From Leptolyngbya sp. BC1307 (GTDB lineage Bacteria > Cyanobacteriota > Cyanobacteriia > Phormidesmidales > Phormidesmidaceae), in contig NZ_NRTA01000005.1 in assembly GCF_002286735.1 (NCBI RefSeq), forward strand, positions 1-64,000: 64,000 nucleotides of DNA, written 5' to 3'. The position numbers and the translations under genes were made by a program. Below, piece by piece: positions 20,797-21,106 of this stretch (position 1 is the stretch's first letter; each line of letters starts with the position of its first letter). The notes under the pieces are model-generated. The model searched no databases, had not been told where the DNA came from, and worked only from the letters and a program-made list of their open reading frames with translations.

Positions 20797-20798
20797 TT

Positions 20799-20876
20799 AA
20801 AAAACCATCCGCTCCCATCTGGGGAAATGCCGATAGCTTCAAGAACAGCTTTACGACATTTCAAAGATGGGAGCGG
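20799..20876 (-). terminator. Intrinsic terminator of the structured RNA unit
   Basis: On the minus strand CCGCTCCCATCT (20876-20865) pairs perfectly with AGATGGGAGCGG (20820-20809). An inner GAAATG/CATTTC stem lies within the 44-nt loop. ATGG and six T follow (to 20799). Confidence 0.8.
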
Positions 20877-20956
20877 TCTGGTCGGGTCTTCAGGTTAAAA
20901 CCAAACTGCCGGAAGGAAATCCAGCTATCTAGCTCTAACTGATGTTAAAGCTAGTT

Positions 20957-21028
20957 CTAGAGAACAGCCCCGGCACACAGCCGGCTTACATCAACCTGGA
21001 GACCCACGCATTTATCACTTACTGACAT
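20957..21028 (-). CDS. Candidate 23-residue small protein or leader peptide
   Basis: ATG 21028 is preceded by AGGAGGTGAT ending 4 bases upstream (AGGAGG 8 bases away), among the strongest ribosome sites in the window. The peptide starts MSVSDKCVGL and ends SRLCAGAVL, with two Cys and no membrane helix. An in-frame ATG two codons earlier is possible but too close to the Shine-Dalgarno. The coding sequence contains the 5' arm of the long-range helix, so its translation would open that helix. No family known to me; coding status is not proven. Confidence 0.4.
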   Translation of the reverse strand: MSVSDKCVGLQVDVSRLCAGAVL

Positions 21029-21097
21029 GGGCATCACCTCCTATATTCCTAAACAGGTTACGTTCAGTAGCTGAGTGGCGAACCACTCACAGGAGCT

Positions 21098-21106
21098 AAT
21101 ATAGCA
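21098..21106 (-). promoter_or_regulatory. Extended -10 element driving the structured RNA unit
   Basis: TGCTATATT on the minus strand fits TGnTATAAT with one mismatch. No good -35 is visible at 16-18 bp upstream. Transcription would begin near 21091, just before the TTCG hairpin. Confidence 0.5.

Follow-up and report, generated by a model that had tools for sequence, protein, structure and literature searches.

A cyanobacterial RNA, very likely of the Sye_sRNA1 family, combines a full anti-Shine-Dalgarno match with a micro-ORF that forms one arm of a long-range helix

The window, by which we mean the whole stretch of 64,000 nucleotides of Leptolyngbya sp. BC1307 that was analysed, carries on its minus strand a compact RNA gene located between prfA, upstream, and an iron-uptake porin gene (NF033921), downstream. 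An earlier note, made from the sequence alone, had described a transcription unit between these neighbours, with an extended -10 element, a UUCG hairpin and a terminator, and all of these were found in the minus-strand sequence where it had placed them. The -10 element (TGCTATATT, 21098..21106), which aligns with those of the relatives, predicts a transcription start near 21091; the hairpin GAGUGG-UUCG-CCACUC (21073..21088), present in the sequence and in the fold, follows at the 5' end of the RNA and is common in relatives, with a variable sequence; and the unit closes with an intrinsic terminator, seen both in the window and in relatives, of the form CCA-GA-CCGCUCCCAUCU ... AGAUGGGAGCGG-A-UGG and six U (20799..20881). 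A generic promoter and terminator scan picked out none of the RNA's sites. The minimum free energy (MFE) of the 297-nt minus-strand transcript was -125.5 kcal/mol, compared to -85.4 +/- 4.9 kcal/mol for 200 dinucleotide shuffles (z -8.1), which bears out the structured nature attributed to it. The Rfam 15 covariance models gave nothing at gathering score and, on the minus strand, nothing even at an E value of 10, in line with the note's remark that no known non-coding RNA signature could be recognised.

The same remark, that no long ORF was recognised, passed over a short one. Behind AGGAGGTGAT the window carries a micro-ORF of 23 codons with stop TAG (20957..21028, minus strand) that encodes MSVSDKCVGLQVDVSRLCAGAVL. 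It is preceded by the Shine-Dalgarno (SD) sequence AGGAGGUGAU (21033..21042), 10 nt complementary to the 16S rRNA tail of its own genome, and directly 5' of this ribosome-binding site lies a box, ACCUGUUUAGG (21048..21058), that is conserved in the alignment with a family form close to ACCGUUUAGG. A pairing partner was looked for and none was found for this ACCGUUUAGG-like box, which most homologues have; pairing with the terminator CUAGAC was dropped after inspection by eye, the partners showing no joint change.

The element is widespread. A DNA search found it in 48 of 58 relatives, and a covariance model built from 28 sequences found it in 291 of 390 Cyanobacteriia genomes, representing 136 of 159 genera, so that the conservation in cyanobacteria proposed as a check in the earlier note is present; with this first model there was one copy per listed genome, with a single exception. 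A second model (R2, from 64 divergent sequences) matched the small genomes of family f2, probably marine picocyanobacteria, weakly but consistently over about 129 nt, and a third (R3) matched further f2 genomes. The layout there is alike and the sequence different: AGGAGGAGGUG, an AUG or GUG start, a 17-codon ORF (for example MSSSCLTQGLLIAENAG), a long hairpin and a terminator. Neither R2 nor R3 produced a full-length match in the picocyanobacterial genomes of 1.6-1.8 Mb or in genus g29, and outside Cyanobacteriia the search returned one weak 36-nt R2 match (G444), without support from R3. In one picocyanobacterial genome (L136, G086) R3 matched two sites 5.3 kb apart, and the weaker of the two may be a duplicate copy.

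The genes around the element differ between genomes. The common order is psbD2, the RNA, a pterin dehydratase gene (phhB) and a porin gene; psbD lies upstream in the S. elongatus-like genomes (L076 and L078) and in many others, and cobB in the Synechocystis-like ones (L061 and L103). Elsewhere prfA, an NmrA-like gene or, on the other strand, nadC is found upstream, and in many genomes none of these genes is present. Through all these changes of flanking genes, promoter, RNA and terminator remain one block. The extended -10 pattern TGnTAnnnT stands upstream of 65 of the 80 homologues, compared to 11 expected from base-shuffled (mononucleotide) sequence, and the terminator is kept in nearly all. 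Since the neighbours vary while its own promoter and terminator are retained, the RNA is a free-standing gene and not the leader of one gene. This agrees with the independent minus-strand unit of the earlier note, whose further proposal of a regulatory RNA or leader needs correction on two points: a porin leader does not fit the varying flanking genes, nor a simply non-coding RNA the ORF, open family-wide. The terminator shows a peculiarity of its own, in that the 3-bp stem at its base and the GA/A internal loop (20881-20805 in the window) turn up repeatedly in relatives, the stem as CUA/UAG or CCA/UGG and, in picocyanobacteria, as CGA/UCG; judged from the rows with an unambiguous CUA/UAG or CCA/UGG, this conservation exceeds the need of a plain terminator. 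In L079 and L086 the CCGCYCC terminator stem is replaced by an unrelated terminator hairpin.

These properties recall an RNA that has already been reported. Sye_sRNA1 of S. elongatus UTEX 2973 was described in 2018, without an assigned function, as a discrete transcript of about 200 nt, confirmed by dRNA-seq and Northern blot, that responds to light and is among the most abundant cyanobacterial sRNAs (PMC6091082). Its homologues TU475 (Synechocystis 6803) and TU2045 (6714) are also very abundant, and the family, with a conserved structure and 53 homologues spread broadly in cyanobacteria, lies downstream of psbD or cobB (PMC6091082). Because we found the same synteny in S. elongatus-like and Synechocystis-like genomes, the window RNA is very likely the local copy of this family, matched by synteny and description and not by sequence; psbD or cobB lies upstream in the family, but prfA in the window copy. 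The earlier note's best candidate for an undescribed RNA thus appears to have been described already. The other papers searched added nothing on this RNA. Compared to its 53 homologues, the element is found here in 291 of 390 genomes plus the picocyanobacteria, and whereas the accessible part of the published account says nothing of an ORF, a strong SD or a helix with a coding arm (PMC6091082), all three are present here. The micro-ORF with a full anti-SD match and the coding-arm helix are what is new.

The ribosome-binding site and the reading frame are both conserved. The spacing between SD and AUG is 8 nt in 75 of 80 homologues, and the pattern AGGAGGTGATN{1,6}ATG occurs only twice in the 4.9 Mb genome; the computed accessibility of the SD is only moderate (median 0.38). 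Frame 0 runs for 16 codons or more without a stop in 80 of 80 homologues (79 by script plus L102, which the script misread), compared to 19 and 2 for the two alternative frames. The ORF measures about 16-27 codons, and in 10 homologues three bases are inserted ahead of the conserved motif. Over codons 9-20 the mean BLOSUM62 score is +0.22 in frame 0 versus -0.95 and -1.01 in the others, a test that is not independent of the RNA structure because coding and pairing constraints overlap on the same bases; frame 0 has no advantage over frame +1 in codons 2-7, which are unpaired. As the statistics ignore relatedness, conservation of the frame is good, though not conclusive, evidence that the ORF may be translated. 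Codons 4-6 (21019-21011), AGU GAU AAA in the window, are almost always AGU AGU AAA in relatives, which gives UAG UAG UAA in another frame, and UCN codons for Ser are almost never used here. A start-codon-sequestering hairpin proposed by RNAalifold was dropped, several divergent homologues having none of its pairs.

These observations raised the possibility that the RNA is simply the mRNA of a micro-protein, the peptide of 17-24 residues being the product and the hairpin merely tuning translation or mRNA stability. Such a role would account for a frame open in all homologues, for in-frame insertions, for changes at codons 9-20 that are conservative in frame 0 only, and for the recurrent residues (D/E)SSK and GL..V...RLCAGAVL. 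It fits less well with a peptide that has no Pfam match, is very different in picocyanobacteria and has lost its last six residues in several lineages, or with an AGU-AGU-AAA run held at the nucleotide level beyond any amino-acid need, and we regard it as unlikely. A literature text search for the peptide or the SD string found no paper. Direct reading of MSVSDKCVGLQVDVSRLCAGAVL and its relatives revealed no long hydrophobic membrane-spanning stretch, and a type I toxin mRNA, which would encode a hydrophobic membrane peptide, was rejected.

The long-range pairing proved more extensive than first reported. The earlier note had paired GGGUCUCCAGGUU (21005-20993) with AACCUGAAGACCC (20896-20884) over 12 of 13 positions; the pairing is real, but it forms no more than the base of a family-wide helix of much greater length that the note had overlooked, in which codons 9-21 pair with CCUYCCGGCAGUCUGGUUUCAACCUGAAGACCC. 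In the window the 5' arm lies inside the micro-ORF (about codons 8-21; 20968..21005), the 3' arm is CCUUCCGGCAGUUUGGUUUUAACCUGAAGACCC (20884..20916), and between them is an apical region (20917..20967), variable in the alignment of relatives, that holds the stop codon together with small hairpins peculiar to particular lineages. The compensatory changes suggested as a check were found: in an alignment of 64 sequences, 95.4% of cells are paired and 18 of 22 pairs have changes on both sides, amounting to 168 cells compared to 37 in shuffles and 13-30 with the partners slid. Since this alignment had been fitted to a related structure, we added an alignment-free arm-swap test with 27 non-redundant sequences, in which native arms paired with a mean of -38.4 kcal/mol and swapped arms with -30.6 kcal/mol (0 of 20000 permutations). 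Of 74 homologues, 56 have at least 15 long-range pairs in the predicted MFE structure; the window copy, with local hairpins inside, has only 12, so that alternative local hairpins probably matter in this copy. In L073, L076, L078, L080 and L085 the ORF ends with UGA or UAG at codon 18, in the four-base bulge of the helix, and the RNA downstream still pairs; this stop occurs in S. elongatus-like and Thermosynechococcus-like genomes. With the coding sequence as the 5' arm, translation and the closed hairpin would be mutually exclusive.

If the ORF and its SD were incidental, the molecule could be an ordinary base-pairing sRNA that acts on other mRNAs. Its size, abundance and light response resemble those of regulatory sRNAs, it is called an sRNA in the available text of the published account (PMC6091082), and the closed hairpin with variable apical loops is in keeping with that class. 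However, a full anti-SD match with an intact frame in 80 of 80 homologues would be unexpected for an incidental ORF, and since both arms drift together the helix offers no fixed seed; we find this explanation improbable.

The arrangement of ORF, hairpin and terminator is also that of a leader-peptide attenuator, which here would act on the porin or pterin dehydratase gene downstream, and in many genomes, including the S. elongatus-like ones, phhB and the porin gene do follow the RNA in the same orientation. But many other genomes have neither gene downstream, in some the next gene is on the opposite strand, the 5' arm of the terminator is outside the long-range helix, and what is available of the account reports a discrete transcript, about 200 nt long (PMC6091082), all of which makes attenuation very improbable. 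That this is a functionless chance structure between genes, for which nothing but the shortness of the ORF was found to speak, is next to inconceivable for a single-copy element with a conserved promoter in 136 genera, and is already refuted by the covariation of the helix.

The reading that we favour, and on balance hold to be probable from comparative sequence data, is that of a ribosome-engaged small RNA coupled to its own translation, with a switch and an output that we infer. A ribosome initiating at the strong SD would have to open the helix to elongate. Ribosome occupancy would then decide whether the RNA is closed as a hairpin or open with its 3' arm free, and the abundance, stability or activity of the RNA would thereby be coupled to translation. 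Given the geometry of the ribosome footprint, the closed helix, with its start about 24 nt downstream of the AUG, would be positioned just ahead of an initiating ribosome. The candidate outputs are the peptide, the freed 3' arm or a ribosome held on the RNA, and since several lineages do without the last codons as peptide, we lean towards the latter two. A more speculative form of this idea, which we put forward tentatively and think rather doubtful, is that the RNA may hold initiating ribosomes, the full anti-SD match anchoring them and the stable hairpin some 24 nt past the AUG blocking elongation, so that it would buffer or sense translation capacity across cyanobacteria. Either way, an abundant and widely conserved cyanobacterial RNA, outside Rfam and without a reported function since 2018, has an SD, a micro-ORF and a mutually exclusive hairpin that together give a concrete, testable idea, namely that it works with the ribosome.

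Several known systems share parts of this design. Yfr6, or the Downstream-peptide motif (RF01704), is likewise a cyanobacterial RNA with a short conserved ORF, but its structure is in the 5' UTR and it has a link to nitrogen; as an identity for the window RNA it was rejected, there being no Rfam match even at an E value of 10 and the structure being located differently. Leader-peptide attenuators also combine a short ORF, alternative pairing and a terminator, whereas the RNA family analysed here has no conserved downstream gene. A further parallel in organisation is seen in SgrS/SgrT, SR1/SR1P and RNAIII, where a single abundant RNA likewise contains a short ORF and a structured part. These dual-function sRNAs keep coding and pairing largely in different regions, whereas in the window RNA the coding sequence itself is one arm of the helix.
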